Shown here piece by piece: positions 1 through 9,225 of a stretch of DNA of 9,514 bases; within the stretch, counting starts at the first letter, position 1, and the number at the start of each line of letters is the position of its first letter. The translations under genes were made by a program, and so were the position numbers. Location of the stretch: NCBI GenBank assembly GCA_015487895.1, contig WFOW01000305.1, positions 1 to 9,514 on the forward strand, read 5' to 3'. Source of the DNA: Gammaproteobacteria bacterium (GTDB lineage: Bacteria; Pseudomonadota; Gammaproteobacteria; S144-34). The notes beneath the pieces are model-generated. The model searched no databases and was not told the origin of the DNA. It worked only from the letters and a program-made list of their open reading frames with translations.

Positions 1-524
1 GCATCGCGCGCGACGCCCTGGGAGAGGGGCGCTTCCGGGTGCTCGTGGTGGGATTCGACACCGCCCAGGACACGCCGCAGGCGATGCGGGTCTATGCCCG
101 TCGGCAGGGTGCGGCGGGCGAGCCGGGATGGATCTTCGCCAGCGCCGACGAGCGGACGGTGCGCGCGCTGGCGCGCGACCTGGGCTTCGTCTACGAGCGC
201 GCGCCTCAGGGCTTCGATCATCTGCTCCAGGTGACGCTGCTCGACGGGGAGCTGCGCGTGCGCCGCCAGCTCTACGGCGACGCCCTCACCGCGCCGCAGC
301 TCGTCGAGCCGCTCAAGCAGATCGTCTACGGCGAGCCCATGGGCCGCGGGCTGGTGGCCGAGATCGCCGACCGCGTGCGCCTGTTCTGCACCACCTACGA
401 CCCTGCCACCGGCGCCTACCGCTTCGACTACTCGCTGTTCATCGGTCTCGCCATCGCCACGCTCATCCTGCTGTCGACGTTCGTCTTCCTCGTGCGCGAG
501 CTGCGGCGCCGCGGCGCTTCTTGA
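1..524 (+). CDS. SCO1/SenC family copper chaperone, C-terminal part (partial at the window's left edge)
   Basis: The open frame enters from the left edge (first full codon at base 3) and ends with TGA at 522-524, giving about 173 residues. The visible part matches the second half of the SCO thioredoxin fold. It has the strand VLVVGFDTAQDTP, then the segment around GFDHLLQV carrying the usual SCO copper-binding histidine, then LDGELRVRRQLYG. The CxxxC motif must lie upstream and is not visible. After the fold there is a tail with one Cys (LFCTTYDPATGAY) and a C-terminal membrane helix (about LFIGLAIATLILLSTFVFLV) ending in RELRRRGAS. The complete sco gene at 6072-6914 has the same tail. SCO proteins deliver copper to, or reduce, the CuA site of oxidase subunit II. 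Its partner may lie upstream of the window or be the downstream cassette, 73 bases away. The family call is firm; the partner is not known. Confidence 0.85.
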   Translation, partial: IARDALGEGRFRVLVVGFDTAQDTPQAMRVYARRQGAAGEPGWIFASADERTVRALARDLGFVYERAPQGFDHLLQVTLLDGELRVRRQLYGDALTAPQLVEPLKQIVYGEPMGRGLVAEIADRVRLFCTTYDPATGAYRFDYSLFIGLAIATLILLSTFVFLVRELRRRGAS

Positions 525-597: not shown

Positions 598-2178
598 GTG
601 GAGACGGCTGTGCGGATGCTCCTGCGGCTGCTGCGGGGCGCCTTCGAGCCCTGCGAGCGCCTCGCCTACCGGCTGTTCGGCGGCGAGAGCCCGTTTCACC
701 ACCTGGGCGCGCTGACGATCTATCTGTTCTGGATCGTGCTCGTCAGCGGGCTCTACGTGTTCGCCTTCTACGAGACCAGCGTCGCGGGCGCCTACGCCTC
801 GGTCGAGCGCCTCACCCAGGAGCAATGGTATCTCGGCGGGGTGATGCGCAGCCTCCATCGCTATGCCTCCGACGCCGCGGTGCTCACGATGGGGTTGCAC
901 CTGATCCGGGAGCTCTCGCGGGACCATCACCGCGGGCCGCGCTGGTTCTCGTGGCTGACCGGCGTGCCCAACCTGTGGATGGTCTACATGCTCGGGATCA
1001 CGGGCTACTGGATGGTGTGGGACGAGCTCGCCCAGTACGTGGCGGTCGCCACCGCCGAGCTCCTCGACTGGCTGCCCATCTTCACCGACCCCATGGCGAG
1101 GAACTTCCTGACGGAAGGAAGCCTGGGCGACCGCTTCTTCACCCTGCTGGCCTTCCTGCACCTCCTGGGCCTGCCGCTCATCCTCGTCGGCACCGTATGG
1201 CTCCACATCCAGCGCATCGGGCGCCCGCGCATCAACCCCCCGAGGCGCCTGGCGCTGGGGACCCTGCTGGCGCTGCTCGCGCTCTCCTTCGCGCAACCGG
1301 CCACGAGCCATGCTCCGGCGGACCTCACGCGCGCCCCCCGGGTGCTCGACCTCGACTGGTTCTATCTGGCCGTCTATCCCCTGTACGACCTGTTCGGCGC
1401 GCCGGCGGTGTGGGGGGTGCTGTGGGGCGGGACACTGCTGCTGTGCGCGCTGCCGTGGCTGCCGCCGCGCCGCCGCGCCCCCGTGGCCGAGGTGAATCCC
1501 GAGTGGTGCACCGGCTGCCGCCGCTGCTTCGGCGACTGTCCCTACGGGGCCATCGACATGGCCCCGCACCCGTACAGGCGCGGCAAGGAGGTCTCGGTGG
1601 TCGACCCCGCCCTGTGCGTGAGCTGCGGGATCTGCGAAGGCGCCTGCCCCTCGGCCACGCCATTCCGCAGCGTGCGCGAGCTCGTCAGCGGCATCGAGCT
1701 GCCGCAGTATCCGGTGCAGGTGCTGCGCGAGCGCGCGCGTGACGCCGCCCGCCGGCTGCGGGGACCGGTCCGCATCGTGGTCTTCGGCTGCGGGCACGCC
1801 GCCGATCCGGCGCTGGTGGCGCGTGCCGACACCGCCGCCGTGCCGCTGGTGTGCGCGGCCATGCTGCCGCCCTCGCTGGTCGAGTACCTGATCCGGCGCG
1901 AGGGCGTGGACGGGGTGGTGATCGCCGGCTGCCGGGCCGAGGACTGCGAGTACCGGCTCGGCACGCGCTGGGTGGAGGAGCGCATCTGCGGCGCGCGCGA
2001 GCCGCATCTGCGGCGCAACGTGCCGCGCGACCGCGTCGCCCTGTGCTGGAGCGGCGCGGACGGCGCGCTCCTGCGCCGCTGCGTCGAGGATTTCCGGGCG
2101 CGCCTGGCGCGTGCGGCGGACGCCGGGGACGGCGAGCCGCCTCAGGCGGCCGCGGCGGGAGGAGGCCGCAGTGCCTGA
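598..2178 (+). CDS. Cytochrome b6-like / 2x[4Fe-4S] ferredoxin / MvhD-type [2Fe-2S] fusion protein
   Basis: A protein of about 526 residues, counted from GTG 598. GTG 610 is also possible, with GGAG at 600-603 six bases ahead. Residues 33-215 are a cytochrome b N-terminal domain. Haem histidine pairs are H87/H101 (spacing 14) and H188/H203 (spacing 15); the extra residue in the second pair is a b6-type trait. The Qo-region motif is GITGYWMVWD (residues 133-142). Residues about 217-290 hold two more helices resembling the start of b6f subunit IV, with LDWF (252-255) where PEWY is expected. Two ferredoxin motifs follow: C304/C307/C310/C314 and C340/C343/C346/C350. Residues 390-505 resemble MvhD/FlpD, with candidate [2Fe-2S] ligands C398, C419, C445 and C450. 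In methanogens MvhD passes electrons to HdrA. I infer electron transfer between membrane quinone and a cytoplasmic carrier, in an unknown direction. No hydrogenase or Hdr gene is in the window. Confidence 0.88.
   Translation: METAVRMLLRLLRGAFEPCERLAYRLFGGESPFHHLGALTIYLFWIVLVSGLYVFAFYETSVAGAYASVERLTQEQWYLGGVMRSLHRYASDAAVLTMGLHLIRELSRDHHRGPRWFSWLTGVPNLWMVYMLGITGYWMVWDELAQYVAVATAELLDWLPIFTDPMARNFLTEGSLGDRFFTLLAFLHLLGLPLILVGTVWLHIQRIGRPRINPPRRLALGTLLALLALSFAQPATSHAPADLTRAPRVLDLDWFYLAVYPLYDLFGAPAVWGVLWGGTLLLCALPWLPPRRRAPVAEVNPEWCTGCRRCFGDCPYGAIDMAPHPYRRGKEVSVVDPALCVSCGICEGACPSATPFRSVRELVSGIELPQYPVQVLRERARDAARRLRGPVRIVVFGCGHAADPALVARADTAAVPLVCAAMLPPSLVEYLIRREGVDGVVIAGCRAEDCEYRLGTRWVEERICGAREPHLRRNVPRDRVALCWSGADGALLRRCVEDFRARLARAADAGDGEPPQAAAAGGGRSA
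2157..2165 (+). promoter_or_regulatory. Strong ribosome binding site that sets a GTG start
   Basis: GGGAGGAGG lies five bases before GTG 2171, inside the 3' end of the cytochrome b fusion gene. The same frame stays open upstream to an ATG at 2111, but that start has no comparable site. The extra residues it would add are arginine-rich and look like out-of-frame GC-rich sequence. The site therefore supports GTG 2171 as the start and coupling to the upstream gene. Confidence 0.75.
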
Positions 2179-2680
2179 TCGCGGTCCCGCATGGGTGGCG
2201 GCGGGCCGCGGGCTTGCCTACGTGCTCTTTGCCGCCTTTGTCGGCTTCTTCGCCGTGCGCCCGGCCTGGACGCATCTCGGCCCGGACGAGGCCGTGGTCA
2301 AGGTCAGCATCGTCCATCGGGGCCAGCCCGTGGGCGAGTGCCGCGAGCGCAGCGAGGAGGAGCTCGCGCGCCTGCCGCCCAACATGCGTGTCAAGCTTGT
2401 CTGCCCGCGCGAGCGCTCGCCGCTCGAGCTCGAGGTCTGGCTGGACGGGCGCCTGCTGCATCGCGAGGTCAAGGCGCCGAGCGGGCTGCACCATGACGGG
2501 CCCTCGTACATCTACCGGCGCTTCGTGGTGCCCGCGGGCGAGCACCTGCTGCGCGTGCGCCTGCGCGACAGCGTGCGCGCCGAGGGCTATCCCTACGACC
2601 GCAGCGAGCGGGTGCGCCTCGATCCCGGCCGCGTGCTGGCGGTGGACTTCGATCCGGTCGCGGGGATCCGCTTCCGATGA
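2171..2680 (+). CDS. Unrecognised membrane-anchored protein with a probable periplasmic domain
   Basis: 169 residues starting at GTG 2171. The start overlaps the upstream stop by eight bases, and the stop overlaps the next ATG (ATGA at 2677-2680). I do not recognise a named family. A short N-terminus is followed by one hydrophobic segment at about residues 14-30 (LAYVLFAAFVGFFAV) ending in RPAW. The rest is soluble, probably periplasmic, and rich in alternating hydrophobic residues suggesting a beta-sandwich. Notable elements are VKVSIVHRGQPVGEC, LARLPPNM, SYIYRRFVVPAGEHLLRVRLRDS and PGRVLAVDFD. Cysteines C57 and C78 could form a disulfide. There is no CxxCH haem motif, no CuA motif and no lipobox. 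Its position between the cytochrome b fusion and a subunit I homologue suggests an accessory or assembly subunit of that complex; this is inferred from context only. Confidence 0.8.
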   Translation: MPDRGPAWVAAGRGLAYVLFAAFVGFFAVRPAWTHLGPDEAVVKVSIVHRGQPVGECRERSEEELARLPPNMRVKLVCPRERSPLELEVWLDGRLLHREVKAPSGLHHDGPSYIYRRFVVPAGEHLLRVRLRDSVRAEGYPYDRSERVRLDPGRVLAVDFDPVAGIRFR

Positions 2681-4071
2681 AGGCGGGCGAGAGCGGAGTC
2701 TGGGCCCGGACGGCGGACGAGGCCGTTTCCTTCGCGCTGCCGGTGCCGGCGGGCGCCGCCGCGCGGCTCGCGCGCGGGTGGCTGCTGCTCGGCGTGGGGG
2801 CGCTGCTGCTCTCCGGGCTCTTCTCCGTGCTGATCGTGCTGGCGCGCGCGCCGGGCGTCTCCGAGCGTCTGCCGTGGGTGGACCTCTTCCATACCGCGCT
2901 GGTGGTGCACGTGGACCTGTCGGTGCTGGTCTGGTTGCTGGCTTTCGCGGGCGTCTTCTGGAGCCTGCACGGCGGCGACCGGGCCGTGGCGCTGGGGCGC
3001 GCGGCGCTCGCGCTGGCCGCAGCCGGCACTCTTGGCATGGCCGCCGCCCCTTTCCTCGGCGCCGGACGCCCGCTGATGAGCAACTACATCCCGGTGCTGG
3101 ACGACCCGCTCTTCCTCGGCGCGCTGCTGCTCTTCGCCACCGGGTGCCTGGGGCAGCTCGTGCGGGCCCTGCTCTTCGTGCCGCCGGTGGGGGCCGGCGC
3201 GGGCGGCGAGGGGGCGCTGCGCTTCGGGGTCAACACCGCGGCGGTGGCCGGCGGGATGGCCGTGCTGGCCTTCGTCTGGTCGTGGATCCTGCTGCCGGAT
3301 TTTCTCGAGGGGAAGGAGCGCTACGAGCAGCTCTTCTGGGGCGGCGGGCACGTCCTGCAGTACGTGCACACCCAGCTCATGCTGGTGGCGTGGCTTTGGC
3401 TGGCGCATGCCGGAGGGCTGCGCCTGCCCATCACGCCGCGCGTGGTGCTCGCGCTGTTCGCGTGGGGTCTGCTCGCGGTCTTCGCCACGCCGCTGATCTA
3501 CCTTGCCTACCCCTTCGGGTCGGTGCCGCATCTGCGTGCCTTCACGTGGATGATGGCCTTCGGCGGCAGCCTCGCCGCCGCGCCCCTCGGCGCGGCCGTG
3601 CTCGCCGGATCCCTCGGCCGGGTGCGAGCGGACGGAGGCGATCCCGTGGCGAGGACCGCGCTGTGGGCCTCGGTGACGCTCTTCGGCGTCGGCGGCATGC
3701 TCGGTTTCGCCATCGAGGGCGGAGACGTGCGCGTGCCCGCGCACTACCACGGGAGCATCGTGGGCGTCACCCTCGCCTTCATGGGGCTGGCCTACCACCT
3801 GATGCCGCGCCTCGGGCTCGGGGAGCCGCCGTCCGGTCTCGCACGCTGGCAGCTCGGGCTCTACGCCACCGGCCAGCTCCTGCACGTGCTGGGGCTGGCC
3901 TGGTCCGGCGGCTACGGCGTGCCGCGCAAGACGCCCGGTGCCGCGCAGGGGCTTGAGAGCCTGCCCGAGATTGCGGGCATGGCCGTGATGGGGCTCGGGG
4001 GCCTGCTCGCGATCGCCGGCGGCATGCTGTTTGTGGTTGCGGCCGGGCTGGCCCTCGCGCGCCGCCCCTAG
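2677..4071 (+). CDS. Haem-copper oxidase subunit I homologue lacking two CuB histidines
   Basis: 464 residues, about 12 hydrophobic segments, start ATG 2677 overlapping the preceding stop by four bases. The order of motifs is that of haem-copper oxidase subunit I, closest by eye to the B (ba3-like) family. H78 in helix II (ALVVHVDLSVLVW) is the expected low-spin haem ligand. Helix VI reads LFWGGGHVLQYVH, where H225 and Y229 keep the H-x3-Y spacing of the CuB histidine and cross-linked tyrosine. Helix X has VPAHYHG (H356, H358), the expected high-spin and low-spin haem ligands. Helix VII reads ATPLIYLAYPF where ba3 has STPVGFHH, so the two remaining CuB histidines are L276 and A277. The C-terminal stretch LAWSGGYGVPRK resembles the ba3 segment after helix XI. 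Canonical oxygen reduction looks unlikely. It may be a di-haem electron-transfer subunit, a sensor or a divergent enzyme. Family membership is firm; function is open. Confidence 0.85.
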   Translation: MKAGESGVWARTADEAVSFALPVPAGAAARLARGWLLLGVGALLLSGLFSVLIVLARAPGVSERLPWVDLFHTALVVHVDLSVLVWLLAFAGVFWSLHGGDRAVALGRAALALAAAGTLGMAAAPFLGAGRPLMSNYIPVLDDPLFLGALLLFATGCLGQLVRALLFVPPVGAGAGGEGALRFGVNTAAVAGGMAVLAFVWSWILLPDFLEGKERYEQLFWGGGHVLQYVHTQLMLVAWLWLAHAGGLRLPITPRVVLALFAWGLLAVFATPLIYLAYPFGSVPHLRAFTWMMAFGGSLAAAPLGAAVLAGSLGRVRADGGDPVARTALWASVTLFGVGGMLGFAIEGGDVRVPAHYHGSIVGVTLAFMGLAYHLMPRLGLGEPPSGLARWQLGLYATGQLLHVLGLAWSGGYGVPRKTPGAAQGLESLPEIAGMAVMGLGGLLAIAGGMLFVVAAGLALARRP

Positions 4072-4329: not shown

Positions 4330-5085
4330 ATGATCCGCAGCTCCGCAGCCGCCCGGGACGATGCTGCGCCTGGCCGCGAGGGCTTGCGCTGCCGGCGCTG
4401 CTGTCTCGGGTCCCTGTGCCTGCCCGCGGGCGTGCAGCCGGCGGAGGTCGCCCTCCTCGACGGTGTCGTGGACACGCGCCGCGAGCTCGCCGAAGGCGAG
4501 GTGCTGGTGGAGGAGGGCGCTCCCCTCCGGGCGCTGTGGGTGGTGCGCTCGGGCTCGCTGAAGGCCGAAACCCGGTGGGGGGGGCGCGCCCAGGTGGTGG
4601 CCTTCCACCTGCCGGGCGAGCTCGCGGGCTGGGACGCCATCGCCGGAGGGCGCCATCGCGCCACCATCCGGGCCCTCGAGCCCTCGGCACTGTGTGCGGT
4701 GCGCTACCAGCGCCTCATGGGGCTGGGCGACCGCATCCCCAGGCTGCACCGCCGTCTCCTGGCCATGCTCTCGGGCGCCGCGCGCTGCGACTGGGTGGTT
4801 TCGGCCGTGGGAGCGGGTGTGCAGGCCGAGGCCCGCGTGCTCGCCTTCCTGCTCAGCCTCGCCGAGCGGCTTATGGCCGCCGGCCTCAGCGTGGACGAGG
4901 TCCGTCTCAGCATGTCGCGCGACGACATCGCGAGCTACCTGGGGCTCGCCCCGGAGACCGTGAGCCGCGCCATGGTGCGTGTGGGACGGCTCGACTGCCT
5001 GGAGGTGCGCCGCCGTCGCGTGCGCTTCCACGACCTCGAGGCGCTGCGCGCGGCCCTGCATGCCATGACGGCTTCCCGATTTTGA
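4330..5085 (+). CDS. fnr: Fnr-type oxygen-responsive transcriptional regulator (CRP/FNR family, [4Fe-4S])
   Basis: 251 residues from ATG 4330; E. coli FNR has 250. The N-terminal cysteine motif is C21-x2-C24-x5-C30, the same spacing as E. coli C20/C23/C29. The fourth ligand is C122 in EPSALCAVRY. Together they should hold an oxygen-labile [4Fe-4S] cluster that drives dimerisation without oxygen. Residues about 45-150 are the cyclic-nucleotide-like beta-barrel and dimer helix. The helix-turn-helix (about 193-215) carries E209, S212 and R213 in PETVSR, the residues FNR uses to read TTGAT half-sites. A codon-wise open frame extends further upstream, but alignment to FNR and the lack of good upstream starts favour 4330, even though its Shine-Dalgarno is weak. 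C25 is an extra cysteine where E. coli has S24, a position known to tune cluster stability. It sits between two oxidase gene groups and probably controls both. Confidence 0.93.
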   Translation: MIRSSAAARDDAAPGREGLRCRRCCLGSLCLPAGVQPAEVALLDGVVDTRRELAEGEVLVEEGAPLRALWVVRSGSLKAETRWGGRAQVVAFHLPGELAGWDAIAGGRHRATIRALEPSALCAVRYQRLMGLGDRIPRLHRRLLAMLSGAARCDWVVSAVGAGVQAEARVLAFLLSLAERLMAAGLSVDEVRLSMSRDDIASYLGLAPETVSRAMVRVGRLDCLEVRRRRVRFHDLEALRAALHAMTASRF

Positions 5086-5095
5086 GTTTTGTCAA
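5082..5095. promoter_or_regulatory. Candidate FNR/DNR-like box in the cox operon leader
   Basis: TTGAGTTTTGTCAA has the conserved outer half-sites TTGA-N6-TCAA at FNR spacing, with mismatches to TTGAT-N4-ATCAA at the two inner positions. The right half (GTCAA) is closer to the DNR/NnrR form. It overlaps the fnr stop codon (TGA 5083-5085) and lies about 160 bases before the first cox gene. TTGTCA at 5089-5094 inside it resembles a -35 element, but I see no convincing -10 17 bases on. If it works, binding would most likely repress the cox operon at low oxygen. Confidence 0.5.
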
Positions 5096-5143
5096 ATCCG
5101 GGGCGCGCCGCGGTTGTCCGTGGCGGGTCCCTCGCATTACCAA

Positions 5144-5158
5144 AACCAAGCATTGGTT
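5144..5158. repeat. Short inverted repeat, possible operator, in the cox leader
   Basis: AACCAA (5144-5149), spacer GCA, TTGGTT (5153-5158): a perfect 6-bp inverted repeat in an AT-richer patch between the FNR-like box and the GC hairpin. Its symmetry and location suit a regulator site, but it is short and I know no protein for this sequence. Confidence 0.35.
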
Positions 5159-5183
5159 CCGCCCCGCCGCCACGGCGGGGCGG
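5159..5183 (+). repeat. 10-bp GC hairpin in the cox operon leader
   Basis: CCGCCCCGCC (5159-5168), loop GCCAC, GGCGGGGCGG (5174-5183), perfect pairing. It follows directly after the AACCAA/TTGGTT repeat and ends 70 bases before the coxIII start. There is no T-run after it, so it is not a standard terminator. Like the hairpin before fnr, it may shape the leader RNA. Confidence 0.55.
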
Positions 5184-5241
5184 CGCCGGCACGGGGCGCA
5201 AGATCCCGGCCGGCCGCCGGACCACCACCGGGAGGCCGAGG

Positions 5242-5247
5242 AGGAGG
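5242..5247 (+). promoter_or_regulatory. Ribosome binding site that sets the coxIII start
   Basis: AGGAGG directly abuts ATG 5248, which is too close for initiation there. It stands six bases before the in-frame ATG 5254. This favours 5254 over 5248 and over a TTG at 5089 that would add about 55 arginine- and glycine-rich residues. Confidence 0.75.
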
Positions 5248-5253
5248 ATGCCG

Positions 5254-6075
5254 ATGGCGCAGCAAGGCGCGGAGCTCGACCGCGAGCTCGGCGGCCGGCT
5301 CGCGGCCGCCGCCCACGAGGGCGAGGGGCATGCCGCCGGGGAGCATGCCCACGAGTGGGAGACCAGCCCCTGGCCGCTCACCATCAGCGTGGGCATCCTC
5401 CTCGCACTGCCCTTGGCCTTCGCCTTCAGGTTCGTCTACGGACAGCCGCTGCTCGCGGTCATCATGCTGGGCCTGGGGACGCCGCTCATCGTGGCCGGCG
5501 TGGTCGGATGGGTGCGCGAAGGGCTCGGGGCCCACGAGCTCGGTCTCAGCCCCGCGGCCATGCCGTGGTTCATCCTCGCCGAGGCCCTGATCTTCCTGAC
5601 GCTGTTCGCCAGCTACTGGGTGATGCGCCTCGGGGCCCCCGAGTGGCCGCCGGCGGGCACGGTGGATCTGCCGCGTCTGGTGCCCCTGGCGATGACCGCG
5701 ATCCTGGTCTCATCCAGCTTCACCATCCACGCGGCCGAGGCGCGCCTGGCGGAAGGGCGGCACGGCGCTTTCCTGCGCTGGCTGGCGCTGACGATGGTGC
5801 TGGGCACGGTCTTCGTGCTGCTGTCGGCCTTCGAGTGGCGCGAGCTCATCCACGAGGGCTTCACGCCCGCGACCAACGCCTACAGCACGGCCTTCTTCTC
5901 GATCACGGGCTTCCACGCGGCGCACGTCATCGTCGGGCTGGGCGCCTTCGTGGCGCTGCTCCTGCCGGCGCTGCGGGGCCGCGTCAGCGAGCCCTTCGTG
6001 AAGTCGGCCTCGATGTACTGGCACTTCGTGGACGTCGTGTGGCTGTTCGTCGTCTCGCAGGTCTATTTCTGGTGA
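5254..6075 (+). CDS. ctaE: Cytochrome c oxidase subunit III
   Basis: 273 residues from ATG 5254, with about seven membrane helices, as usual for bacterial subunit III. Diagnostic segments are FILAEALIFLTLFASYW (the Glu after Ala matches the conserved helix III glutamate), EWRELIHEGFTPATNAY, FFSITGFHAAHVIVGL and the C-terminal SMYWHFVDVVWLFVVSQV. Subunit III binds lipid next to subunit I, stabilises the catalytic core and supports proton uptake. The N-terminal region before the first helix is rich in His and Glu (HEGEGHAAGEHAHE, about residues 21-34). That is unusual and could bind metal, though this is a guess. It is the first gene of the oxidase operon and its stop overlaps the next likely start (GTGA, 6072-6075). 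Some genomes place coxIII last, so first place is mildly unusual. Confidence 0.93.
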   Translation: MAQQGAELDRELGGRLAAAAHEGEGHAAGEHAHEWETSPWPLTISVGILLALPLAFAFRFVYGQPLLAVIMLGLGTPLIVAGVVGWVREGLGAHELGLSPAAMPWFILAEALIFLTLFASYWVMRLGAPEWPPAGTVDLPRLVPLAMTAILVSSSFTIHAAEARLAEGRHGAFLRWLALTMVLGTVFVLLSAFEWRELIHEGFTPATNAYSTAFFSITGFHAAHVIVGLGAFVALLLPALRGRVSEPFVKSASMYWHFVDVVWLFVVSQVYFW

Positions 6076-6914
6076 CCGTGCGACGCATGGCGGAACTGGC
6101 GGCGCTGCTGGCGCTGGCGCTCGCGGCCGGGCGGGCGGCGGCGCTGCCCGGAGGGCCGCAGGCCGCCACCGAGCGCTCCGAGCTCGACCCGAACGTGCTG
6201 CGCATCGACGAGCCGCGCCACCTCGGCACGCGCCTCGACCCTGGTCTCCTGCTGCGCGACAGCGAGGGGCGCACCTTCCGGCTCGGCGACCTCTTCGGCA
6301 AGCCGCTGGTGCTGGTGCTCTCCTATTACAGCTGCGACGGGGTCTGCCCCACCATCGCGCGCAACCTCGAGCGGACCCTGGAAGGGGTGGAGCGCTTCCG
6401 CCCCGGCCAGGACTTTCGCGTGCTCACGGTCTCCTTCGACCGCCATGACACGCCCGAACGCGCGCGCGCCTTCCTCGCCCGCAGCCGCGCGCGCACCACA
6501 CCGGGCTGGACCGTCGCGGTGCTCGCCGATCCCGGCGACATCCGCCGGCTCACGGACGCGGTCGGATACCGTTATTTCTGGTCCGTGCAGGACCGCATGT
6601 TCGTGCACCCCAACGCCTACGTGGTGCTCTCGCCCGAGGGGCGCATCGTGCGCTACCTCTATGGGCTGCGCATCGGTCCGCGCGATCTGGAGCTCGCGCT
6701 CATCGACGCCAACTGGGACCGTATCACCGAGTCCGGGCGCGTGCTCGACATCGTCGCGGGCGTGTGCTTCAGCTACAGCTATGCCGACGGGCGCTACGTC
6801 CTCAACTATCCGCTCTTCGCGGGGATGGGGGCGCTGGCGCTCGGCATCGGCCTGGTGGCGTTCTCGTTCCTGGTCTACCGGCGCAGACGACACGGGAGGG
6901 TGGGGCATGCCTGA
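6072..6914 (+). CDS. SCO1/SenC family copper chaperone for the CuA site
   Basis: About 280 residues from GTG 6072, which overlaps the coxIII stop. GTG 6078 and ATG 6087 are alternatives; the upstream starts keep an RR-containing n-region before the hydrophobic signal segment AELAALLALALAAG. The thioredoxin-like SCO fold shows the copper motif C88-x3-C92-P (SCDGVCP) and the third ligand H179 (MFVHPNAYVVLSPEG). A tail follows with one Cys (GVCFSYSYADGRY) and a membrane helix (about PLFAGMGALALGIGLVAFSFLVY) ending in RRRRHG. The product would thus be held at the membrane, facing the periplasm, by its C-terminus. SCO proteins metallate or reduce CuA of subunit II; coxII follows directly with an eight-base overlap, which fits that job. 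The partial sco at the left edge shares the same unusual tail. Confidence 0.92.
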   Translation: MTVRRMAELAALLALALAAGRAAALPGGPQAATERSELDPNVLRIDEPRHLGTRLDPGLLLRDSEGRTFRLGDLFGKPLVLVLSYYSCDGVCPTIARNLERTLEGVERFRPGQDFRVLTVSFDRHDTPERARAFLARSRARTTPGWTVAVLADPGDIRRLTDAVGYRYFWSVQDRMFVHPNAYVVLSPEGRIVRYLYGLRIGPRDLELALIDANWDRITESGRVLDIVAGVCFSYSYADGRYVLNYPLFAGMGALALGIGLVAFSFLVYRRRRHGRVGHA

Positions 6915-7638
6915 GGTGCGATCCGTCCTCGCGGCCGTGCCGACCGGCCTGCTGGTCGCGGGTGCGGCCGTGGCCGGGCCCGGGCCCATCGCAGACCCGG
7001 CCGTGGGCTGGGACCGGCTGTGGGAGGAGATGCTGATCGACATCACCGTCATCGGGCTGGTGTTCGCGGCCGTGGCCGCCTGGTTCATGTGGCGCTATCG
7101 CCGCCGCGACCGCGCCGAGGGTGACCCCCCGCGCCTGAGCGCCACCGCTGCCGTGGGCTGGGCCGTGATCCCCGCCTTCGTCTTCATGGCCGACGATTTC
7201 TACCTGGCGGCGAAGGGCTGGGAGCTGTGGAAGGTCTACCGCACGGTCCCCGAGGGTGCCCTGGAGGTGCGCCTCGACAGCGCCATGTGGAGCTGGAACT
7301 ACACCTATCCCAACGGCGCGGTCACGGTGAACGAGCTGCGCGTGCCGGCCGGCCGCCCCGTGCTGCTGCGCATGACGAGCCGCGACGTCGTGCACAGCCA
7401 CTTCATCCCGGACTTCCGCGTCAAGGAGGACTCGATGCCGGGACGCATCACCTACCTCTGGTTCTACCCCAAGGAGCCCGGGGAGCACGTCGTCACCTGC
7501 GCCGAGTACTGCGGCCTGCTGCACTCGCGCATGGCCGGCAAGGTGATCGTCATGGCCCCCGACGCCTTCGAGGCCTGGTACCGGGCGGCGGGGCAGAAGG
7601 CGGCCGCCGAGGCCGCCTCCGGCGGGGAGGAGGTCTGA
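6907..7638 (+). CDS. ctaC: Cytochrome c oxidase subunit II with complete CuA site
   Basis: 243 residues from ATG 6907, preceded by GGAGG (6895-6899) and overlapping the end of sco. An N-terminal hydrophobic stretch (about 7-24) is probably a signal peptide. Membrane helices lie at about 42-62 and 84-100, then a periplasmic cupredoxin domain. The CuA ligands are all present: H163 (DVVHSHFIP) and C198/E200/C202/H206/M209 (CAEYCGLLHSRM). The aromatic patch MWSWNYTYP (127-135) fits the electron entry path from cytochrome c. No cytochrome c domain is fused at the C-terminus. Helix II is odd: the glutamate that guards the K-channel entrance (bovine E62, three residues before the conserved Trp) is A82 here, and the helix contains ADD (95-97). 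It accepts electrons from cytochrome c and passes them to haem a in subunit I. Confidence 0.94.
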   Translation: MPEVRSVLAAVPTGLLVAGAAVAGPGPIADPAVGWDRLWEEMLIDITVIGLVFAAVAAWFMWRYRRRDRAEGDPPRLSATAAVGWAVIPAFVFMADDFYLAAKGWELWKVYRTVPEGALEVRLDSAMWSWNYTYPNGAVTVNELRVPAGRPVLLRMTSRDVVHSHFIPDFRVKEDSMPGRITYLWFYPKEPGEHVVTCAEYCGLLHSRMAGKVIVMAPDAFEAWYRAAGQKAAAEAASGGEEV

Positions 7639-7641
7639 GCG

Positions 7642-9225
7642 ATGGGCGCCACACTGCGGTCCTGGCTGTTCACCACCGACCACAAGCGCGTCGGCATCCT
7701 CTACCTGATCGGCTCGCTCGCGGCCTTCGCCATCGCAGGCGTCATGGCGATGCTGATGCGCATCGAGCTCACGAACATCGGGCCCGACATCACGGACAAC
7801 CCCCAGGACTACAACGTGTGGCTCTATTTCCACGGGGCGGCCATGATCCTGGGGTTCCAGATCCCGGCGTTGACGGGATTTCTCGCCAACTACTGCGTGC
7901 CGCTCATGATCGGCGCGCGCGACGTCGCCTTCCCGCGCCTCAATGCCCTCAGCGTCTGGCTGTTCTGGGCGGGCATCGTGCTGGCGCTCGCGACCTTCGT
8001 GATCCCGGACCCGCCCGACGTCATGTGGACGGGCTATCCGCCCTACGCGACGATGACCTGGGGCAACACGGCCTTCTACAGCTTCACGGTGCTGCTGCTG
8101 GGCTTCTCGTCCATCCTCGGCGGCGTCAACTTCCTCACCACCGTGGCCTATATGCGCGCTCCCGGGATGGGCTGGAACCAGCTCAACGTCTTCGTCTGGT
8201 CCATCGTCGTCGCCTTCATCATTCAGCTCATCTTCGTGCCGGTGCTGGGCACGGCGGTGACCATGCTCCTTTTCGACAAGTATCTGGGCACCACCTTCTT
8301 CCAGCCCGCCAACGGCGGTGACGTGCTCATCTACCAGAATCTCTTCTGGTTCTACTCGCACCCGGCGGTCTACGTCATCCTGCTGCCCTTCCTCGGCATC
8401 ACCTACGAGATCGTGGCCACCTTCGCCCGCAACCGCGTGTTCAACTACAAGATGGTGGTCTACGGCGGCTTCGGCGGCGTGCTGCTGCTCGCGGGCGAGG
8501 TCTGGGTGCACCACCTCTACACCGCCGGGGTGCCCGACTGGCTGCGCGTGGGGCAGATGGTGACCACGCTGCTGATCAGCGTGCCGGTGGGGCTGCTCAT
8601 GATCGGCCTCGTCGGCACCCTCTACCGCGGCTCCATCGAGTACCGCACGCCCATGCTCTACGCCCTCGGGGTGCTCTTCTTCTTCCTCATCGGCGGCCTC
8701 ACGGGCATCCCCAACGCCATCGCCTCGCTCGACCTGCACCTGCAGGACACCTATTTCATCCCCGGGCACTTCCACTACGTGATGGCGGTGGCCGGCACCT
8801 TCGCCATCTTCGGGGCCGTCTACTACCTGTTCCCGAAGATGACGGGACGCATGTACCGTGAGAGGACCGGCAAGCTGGGCTTCTGGCTCACCTTCATCGG
8901 CATGAACCTGGTCTTCATGCCCATGATGATCGCGGGCATCGAGGGCATGCCGCGCCGCTACTACGACTACGCCCAGTTCCCCCAGGTCGAGGGCATGCAG
9001 CAGCTCATGACCGTCGGCGCCTTCGTCATCCTCGCCGGCGCCCTGGTCACGCTGTGGAACTGGCTGCACGGGGCCCTGCGCGGCGAGCCGGCGCCGGCCA
9101 ACCCGTGGGGCTCGCGCTCGCTCGAGTGGACGGCAGCGCCCTCGCCGCCTCCGCCCGGCAACTTCCCGGTGCCGCCGCGGCTCGAGCCCGGATGGAGCCC
9201 CTACGCCTACGGCGAGCGGGCCTGA
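7642..9225 (+). CDS. ctaD: Cytochrome c oxidase subunit I (A-family, A2-like)
   Basis: 527 residues, 12 membrane helices, start ATG 7642 with AGGAGG at 7628-7633. Ligands are complete: H64 and H378 (low-spin haem), H376 (high-spin haem), and H240, H290, H291 (CuB). Y244 sits in HPAVY for the His-Tyr cross-link. Helix VI reads WFYSHPAVY: the YS pair and Ala in place of the D-channel Glu mark an A2-type oxidase, as in Rhodothermus and Thermus caa3. D94 (IGARDVAFPRLN) keeps the D-channel entrance, but the second Asn of the usual NN pair is A102. An ungapped comparison from the HH pair puts L319 at the conserved K-channel lysine and V316 at its partner threonine. The last 50 or so residues are proline-rich. 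This is the catalytic subunit reducing oxygen to water; its proton path is probably atypical. Confidence 0.95.
   Translation: MGATLRSWLFTTDHKRVGILYLIGSLAAFAIAGVMAMLMRIELTNIGPDITDNPQDYNVWLYFHGAAMILGFQIPALTGFLANYCVPLMIGARDVAFPRLNALSVWLFWAGIVLALATFVIPDPPDVMWTGYPPYATMTWGNTAFYSFTVLLLGFSSILGGVNFLTTVAYMRAPGMGWNQLNVFVWSIVVAFIIQLIFVPVLGTAVTMLLFDKYLGTTFFQPANGGDVLIYQNLFWFYSHPAVYVILLPFLGITYEIVATFARNRVFNYKMVVYGGFGGVLLLAGEVWVHHLYTAGVPDWLRVGQMVTTLLISVPVGLLMIGLVGTLYRGSIEYRTPMLYALGVLFFFLIGGLTGIPNAIASLDLHLQDTYFIPGHFHYVMAVAGTFAIFGAVYYLFPKMTGRMYRERTGKLGFWLTFIGMNLVFMPMMIAGIEGMPRRYYDYAQFPQVEGMQQLMTVGAFVILAGALVTLWNWLHGALRGEPAPANPWGSRSLEWTAAPSPPPPGNFPVPPRLEPGWSPYAYGERA

Follow-up and report, generated by a model that had tools for sequence, protein, structure and literature searches.

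A heme-copper oxidase subunit I homologue predicted to lack CuB and its association with an eNOR-type nitric oxide reductase

The 9,514-nucleotide contig WFOW01000305.1 of a gammaproteobacterium (C305; its whole length is called the window here) contains at 2677..4071 a gene for a homologue of subunit I of the heme-copper oxidases (HCOs), which we designate HCOL. Its product keeps the histidines at the heme ligand positions, and the ligand set of the copper site CuB is very probably truly absent from it. Judged by sequence alignment and a tree, HCOL is a paralogue of the catalytic subunit of an eNOR-type nitric oxide reductase (NOR) and forms a sister clade to eNOR subunit I. It is probably an accessory protein rather than a reductase. 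Our favored reading as a whole, which is tentative and falls somewhat short of even confidence, is that this eNOR subunit I paralogue carries two hemes and no CuB and acts as a non-reducing accessory heme protein that probably binds nitric oxide (NO).

Heme and metal ligand positions of HCOL

The HCOL reading frame runs unbroken from the ATG at 2677 to the stop codon at 4069-4071 and encodes 464 amino acid residues. COX1 was its sole Pfam match, and the protein is predicted to have the HCO fold, with the 12 helices of subunit I in the modeled structure. In the database, 5727 proteins matched HCOL at E <= 1e-3, and the ratio of nonsynonymous to synonymous substitution rates (dN/dS; NG86 method) relative to a copy from the same genus was 0.24, supporting purifying selection on the gene. 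The number of matches and this ratio indicate that HCOL is a product of neither chance nor decay, and a decayed gene was ruled out by the intact frame together with the dN/dS value. The genes of this region overlap, with the GTG at 2171 ahead of the stop at 2178 and the ATG at 2677 ahead of the stop at 2680 (ATGA). The frame, the overlaps, and the dN/dS value bear out the claim of an earlier note on this DNA that the gene is maintained and embedded in an operon.

Residue conservation was counted in two sets of sequences. The first consisted of 121 rows, namely HCOL and the best 120 of its 5727 homologues. H78, H225, H356, H358, Q228, E217, and P272 were invariant in all of these rows, Y275 was kept in 119, and His occurred at 274 or 275 in none of the 121. 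The second set consisted of 100 rows, the window plus 99 HCOL places in 98 fetched loci, with identities down to 39%. H225, Q228, W221, H356, and H358 were each present in 100/100 rows, H78 in 97 of the 98 rows having a residue there, and H285 in 79 rows, and a His pair at 274/275 was found in 0/100. One row (L153) had a lone His at 274 and had also lost H78. Position 229, four residues after the helix VI His (H+4), was occupied by Phe in 93 rows and by Tyr in four, the window's HCOL being one of the four.

The low-spin and high-spin heme ligand positions of the HCO/NOR superfamily are thus occupied as expected in HCOL. Among the three His residues of a CuB or FeB site, that of helix VI is kept and the pair of helix VII is gone. 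Because the heme-ligand His residues are all kept and the helix VII pair is absent, the prediction is that HCOL carries two hemes but lacks CuB. The aligned A-type, B-type, C-type, cNOR, qNOR, and eNOR references all had the helix VII pair, the labels A, B, C, cNOR, and qNOR having been assigned here from motifs and length. The Glu that belongs to the FeB site in helix VI of cNOR and qNOR was absent from HCOL in the alignment, and neither the Gln at H+4 nor the helix VII His-His of eNOR was found in any of the 100 HCOL rows. The Tyr at H+4 of the oxygen reductases, which is cross-linked in their A and B types, is not a property of the HCOL family, although the window's copy has one. The distal helix VI set W221, H225, and Q228 was also present at the equivalent positions in eNOR rows.

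The alignments and the predicted fold confirm the earlier proposal that the product of 2677..4071 is homologous to HCO subunit I but devoid of the CuB ligand set, and H78, H225, Y229, H356, and H358 were located where they had been placed. The helix VII pair was absent from every relative examined, the point that the note had suggested checking. Both members of the helix VI His/Tyr pair pointed out in the earlier note are present in the window's HCOL, but the Tyr is not a family feature; because position 229 is mostly Phe, the pair is no oxidase signature in HCOL. The note had further placed the lost helix VII pair at L276-A277; its absence was upheld, but the pair most likely corresponds to I274-Y275, two residues away.

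The latter assignment was obtained by several routes. I274-Y275 stood opposite the eNOR His pair in 52/54 MAFFT runs, made in three modes with varied sampling, and in 18/19 eNOR rows when references were aligned to the HCOL profile with hmmalign. The non-eNOR references in the same hmmalign alignment were spread over 274 to 283 or into insertions, and two B-type rows placed the pair on L276-A277. Since the distant references drift and the B-type rows give L276-A277, the offset of the pair is uncertain by a few residues. In the reverse test, in which the HCOL family was aligned to the eNOR profile, the pair fell on L273-I274 in the window's protein, with gaps in approximately one-third of the 204 rows. 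The spacing from the helix VI His to the pair was 49 in the eNOR of the window's genome, an A-type protein (L094), and a B-type protein (L133), 50 in the window's COX1 and a C-type protein, and 51 in cNOR and qNOR, with a range of 49 to 52 over the references; I274 corresponds to H225+49. In the AlphaFold2 (AF2) model, helix VIII starts at 283, approximately 58 residues past H225, which we take, from the helix limits of solved oxidases, to fit an alignment free of insertions.

Descent of HCOL and its genomic context

The start of the window and the end of another contig of the same genome (C19) share an exact 35-bp sequence. C19 carries genes for subunit II, eNOR subunit I, and heme O synthase and the start of a SCO-like gene, the C19 half of which is presumably SCO-like in view of its CxxxCP motif. 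In a near-complete genome of the same genus (G001), the genes for subunit II, eNOR, CtaB, the SCO-like protein, cytb-FeS, orf189, HCOL, and Crp lie on a single contig (for cytb-FeS and orf189, see Table 1). The reductase of this operon had His-(Ser/Pro)-(Ser/Thr)-Gln-Gln in helix VI and His-His in helix VII in 57/57 rows. Passages of PMC8756737 list Gln at H+4 for eNOR and Asn for sNOR. Because its Gln at H+4 agrees with those passages, the C19 gene, which also has the His-His and an adjacent cupredoxin subunit II, is classed as an eNOR-type reductase and predicted to reduce NO; the name NorY/sNOR was dropped on the same grounds. The subunit II-like gene beside it scored 44.7 bits against TIGR02866, under the cut-off of 147.7.

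The tree was built by a quick method from 78 rows, the HCOL and the eNOR rows each being sampled at one in three. The 28 HCOL rows and HCOL2, a second copper-less homologue at the end of the window, formed one clade with a value of 100 in the Shimodaira-Hasegawa-like approximate likelihood ratio test (SH-aLRT). Its sister group, at 98, comprised the 19 rows of the operon's reductase subunit, followed by two B-type rows at 84. Sequences of the A and C types and those of cNOR and qNOR were placed elsewhere.

eNOR subunit I, a B-family HCO with an active-site Gln, shares with HCOL the heme-ligand His residues, the helix VI His, and a Gln at H+3. The two differ in helix VII, where eNOR has His-His and HCOL mostly Ile/Val-Tyr, and at H+4, where eNOR has Gln (57/57) and HCOL has Phe. 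The His that precedes helix X in eNOR (HNT/HDS motif) is missing from HCOL, where the alignment shows a gap of eight residues. Compared with the B-family oxygen reductases of the Thermus ba3 type, HCOL is without the CuB His pair and mostly without the Tyr at H+4, and compared with cNOR and qNOR (NorB), it is without the FeB His pair and the helix VI Glu. Site-directed CuB-less mutants of Escherichia coli cytochrome bo3 reportedly retain heme without CuB; HCOL differs from these engineered proteins in being natural, widespread, and under purifying selection. No description of a clade of this CuB-less kind was found in open-licence papers.

Gene neighborhoods were compared in the best 80 of 564 confirmed loci, which lean to close relatives of the window and perhaps to eNOR operons, and in 20 further loci chosen by hand (HCOL-only, eNOR-only, and mixed genomes); some genomes, e.g., L004 and G002, may be counted twice. 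HCOL was located behind orf189 on the same strand in 58/99 places, and cytb-FeS was present in 56 of those. eNOR, cytb-FeS, and orf189 were all upstream of HCOL in 44 of the 58, and in the other 14, eNOR was not on the stretch, 13 of these having less than 4.2 kb upstream. A further 13 of the 99 places had eNOR or its partners nearby in another arrangement, two were by rpoH, two were elsewhere, and 11 had too little flank. Genes for NirS/NirF-type d1-heme proteins, a CysG-like protein, hemerythrin, CtaA, and DUF420 were recurrent in the fetched stretches. A plasmid-borne element was not supported, as there was no match in the plasmids collection.

In a survey of 274 genomes of the class, HCOL (E <= 1e-30), eNOR (E <= 1e-100), and the d1-heme domain (E <= 1e-60) were found in 30, 24, and 54 genomes, respectively. 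HCOL was present in 19/24 eNOR genomes, the other five being without it, versus 11/250 others (Fisher p 2e-17, ignoring relatedness). Among the 54 genomes with the d1-heme domain, it was present in 18/21 with eNOR versus 5/33 without (p 4e-7), and outside the eNOR genomes its link to that domain was weaker (5/33 versus 6/217, p 0.008), relatedness being ignored in both comparisons. In eight of the 19 co-occurring genomes, HCOL and eNOR shared a contig and a strand, with HCOL at most 4.4 kb downstream. The window's own genome adds one linked case by contig overlap, and in the other ten, the two genes were on different contigs or over 10 kb apart. In one HCOL genome with no eNOR match (G102), orf189 precedes HCOL at the contig end.

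Genes of the window and related observations

The features of the window are listed in Table 1. No Pfam match was found for the SCO-like fragment at 3..524. In cytb-FeS, H87, H101, H188, H203, the eight cluster Cys residues, C398, C419, C445, and C450 were conserved in at least 93% of 68 rows; the four His residues have cytochrome b spacing, and the last four Cys residues are those of FlpD. The AF2 model of orf189 had a predicted local distance difference test (pLDDT) score of 96.5, and C57 and C78 (numbered from 2171) were invariant and H49 was kept in at least 90% of 62 rows. A structure search with orf189 gave no clear relative. The subunit I at 7642..9225 scored 559 bits against TIGR02891, under the cut-off of 670.75.

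Table 1. Features of the window and key codons of HCOL
Feature	Position	Strand	Basis or remark
SCO-like protein, C-terminal part	3..524	+	5' part on contig C19 of the same genome
cytb-FeS: cytochrome b6-like protein with two 4Fe-4S clusters and FlpD domain	598..2178	+	Pfam PF00033, Fer4, PF02662
orf189, predicted periplasmic protein with one N-terminal membrane helix and beta-sandwich	2171..2680	+	GTG at 2171 behind GGAGG
HCOL, CuB-less HCO subunit I homologue	2677..4071	+	intact open reading frame, conserved heme His, alignment, tree
H78 codon, low-spin heme ligand position, helix II	2908..2910	+	121/121
H225 codon, sole kept CuB-type His, helix VI	3349..3351	+	121/121, 100/100
I274-Y275 codons, most likely site of the reductase His-His, helix VII	3496..3501	+	alignments
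H356-Y357-H358 codons, high-spin and low-spin heme ligand positions, helix X	3742..3750	+	121/121, 100/100
Crp/Fnr-type regulator	4330..5085	+	PF00027, PF13545; ATG 4330 (MIRSS start), open frame from 4177
Cytochrome c oxidase subunit III	5089..6075	+	PF00510; true start probably further in
Second SCO protein	6087..6914	+	PF02630
Cytochrome c oxidase subunit II	6907..7638	+	PF00116; TIGR02866 above cut-off
A-type-like cytochrome c oxidase subunit I, HPxxY and His-His intact	7642..9225	+	PF00115 461 bits, alignment, tree
HCOL2, second copper-less homologue, 5' part only (gene cut off by contig end)	9222..9514	+	44% identity to HCOL residues 21-108; start codon uncertain

A full-length HCOL2 in G001 (L093 7453-8937) keeps GHLMQ and HYH, and its helix VII His pair is absent. 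HCOL2 is more divergent than HCOL and is placed after the A-type oxidase operon.

In five aa3-type oxidase loci (L149, L155, L157, L165, and L168), HCOL is on the opposite strand and adjoins the gene for heme O synthase; in L155, L157, and L168, it has this gene to one side and that for heme A synthase to the other. Another HCO homologue (L131; G016:C6:49000-52500) has H-N-L-M-E in helix VI, the helix VII His pair, and G-H-T-M replacing H-x-H in helix X, and its low-spin heme may have a Met ligand. Frames of approximately 170-210 amino acid residues matching just positions ~300-430 of PF00115 (late helices) were also observed (G024:C27:68365-68685, G054:C15:41223-41546, and similar others), and for several of them the same contig carries a full-length HCO or NOR gene no more than a few kb away.

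Possible roles of HCOL

In the mechanism that we propose, a copy of eNOR subunit I would have lost the helix VII His pair and the Gln at H+4, and with two of the three CuB ligands lost, the binuclear center should be abolished. The high-spin heme would then face a one-metal distal pocket formed by W221, H225, and Q228 of helix VI, with Y275 at the old CuB ligand position. NO from nitrite reductase may bind there, so that HCOL would store, present, or sense NO at the membrane, and the low-spin heme would set the redox state of HCOL. In lineages without eNOR, HCOL encoded beside aa3-type oxidase genes may render the same service to an NO-sensitive oxidase. A gas-binding high-spin heme is favored because W221, H225, and Q228 persist, for which mere electron transfer or a scaffold would give little reason, and NO is favored as the gas because the eNOR operon and the nir neighbors handle NO. 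Among the roles suggested in the earlier note (electron transfer, gas sensing, and new chemistry), the conserved distal pocket likewise seems to favor gas binding. Heme occupancy, a copper-free state, NO as the ligand, and a complex with eNOR or cytb-FeS/orf189 are predicted or inferred properties of HCOL. That NO binding is its main task is suggested with reserve.

Several results weigh against this account. Y275 is not universal, being present in 91/100 rows. One hhalign comparison gapped helix VII and set P284-H285 opposite the reductase pair; because this version yields only two CuB His residues, HCOL is short of three under either alignment. The dN/dS of eNOR was 0.05, and the approximately fivefold higher value of HCOL makes its constraint look looser. 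Long-branch warnings were given for the tree, and the Fisher tests ignore shared ancestry. No eNOR match was found in 11/30 HCOL genomes, some of them incomplete, and one locus (L042) had orf189 and cytb-FeS with nearly 10 kb upstream and no eNOR there. The link between HCOL and eNOR is not exclusive, since aa3-type oxidase loci account for approximately 11/99 HCOL places, with HCOL on the opposite strand in at least five. (Thirteen places had been labeled as oxidase loci, two of which were discounted: L004 is a contig cut just inside HCOL that has the downstream order of the window, and in L158 no oxidase gene was present up to 3.5 kb away.) HCOL also seems dispensable for the eNOR operon because cytb-FeS and orf189 are retained in four of the five genomes that have eNOR but not HCOL, the contig of the fifth ending at eNOR. 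It is the gene neighborhood that points to NO as the probable ligand.

HCOL might instead be purely an electron-transfer subunit in which both hemes are six-coordinate, H225 perhaps serving the former high-spin heme as its second ligand, and which passes electrons from cytb-FeS or quinol to eNOR. Its frequent position behind orf189 and cytb-FeS is consistent with such a role, as are the invariance of the heme-ligand positions and H225 and the presence in cytb-FeS of four His residues at cytochrome b spacing and of all cluster Cys residues. However, HCOL occurs in oxidase loci where neither cytb-FeS nor orf189 was found nearby, both of these genes accompany eNOR without HCOL, and a separate subunit II gene already provides eNOR with a point of electron entry. 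There is also no obvious need for the invariant Q228 and W221 in electron transfer, and we consider this role unlikely.

A role as an assembly factor, either a carrier of heme to subunit I of eNOR or aa3-type oxidase or a template for it, appears less likely still. Heme O synthase, heme A synthase, SCO, or Surf1 genes are found near HCOL in both the eNOR and the oxidase contexts, and a passage of PMC9145763 describes the route of heme A insertion into subunit I as unknown. On the other hand, PF00115 was matched in 51/56 sampled genomes of the class and HCOL in just 30/274, HCOL thus being absent from most of the genomes that have HCO genes, and the invariant heme ligands and distal residues seem to go beyond the needs of a carrier.

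It is improbable that HCOL is an altered reductase that still binds a metal, e.g., iron or copper on H225, Y275, or H285. The invariance of H225 and the conservation of Y275 and H285 would suit such a site, as would the hhalign placement of P284-H285 and the HH found at 285-286 in some homologues (His at 286 in 10/121). The MAFFT and hmmalign results for I274-Y275 and the start of helix VIII at 283 argue against it, and the segment 262-292 mostly holds a single His: among 83 rows, one His was present in 59, two in 16, three in two, and none in six. The two residues named in the earlier note as possible replacement CuB ligands were checked individually. H231 was rejected, being His in just 32/82 rows and otherwise Tyr, Trp, or Phe. 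H285, conserved in 79/100 rows and supported by the hhalign run, is unlikely because MAFFT and hmmalign favor I274-Y275.

A signaling gas sensor, acting for example on the adjacent Crp/Fnr-type regulator, is very improbable: a Crp-type gene follows HCOL in the window and in G001, but COX1 is the only Pfam match in HCOL and a match to the window's Crp was found beside HCOL in few of the 80 loci.

A binuclear heme-metal center is treated as a defining trait of the superfamily that accounts for aerobic respiration and most NO reduction. It is conceivable, though rather doubtful, that HCOL represents a natural and widespread HCO clade without the second metal, in which a single high-spin heme, with a distal pocket of His, Gln, and Tyr in a globin-like, membrane-embedded site, binds or converts NO for the neighboring eNOR. 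If this is true, a clade with hemes and no second metal would offer a natural experiment on the role of that metal, and HCOL would be an unrecognized component of eNOR-based denitrification.
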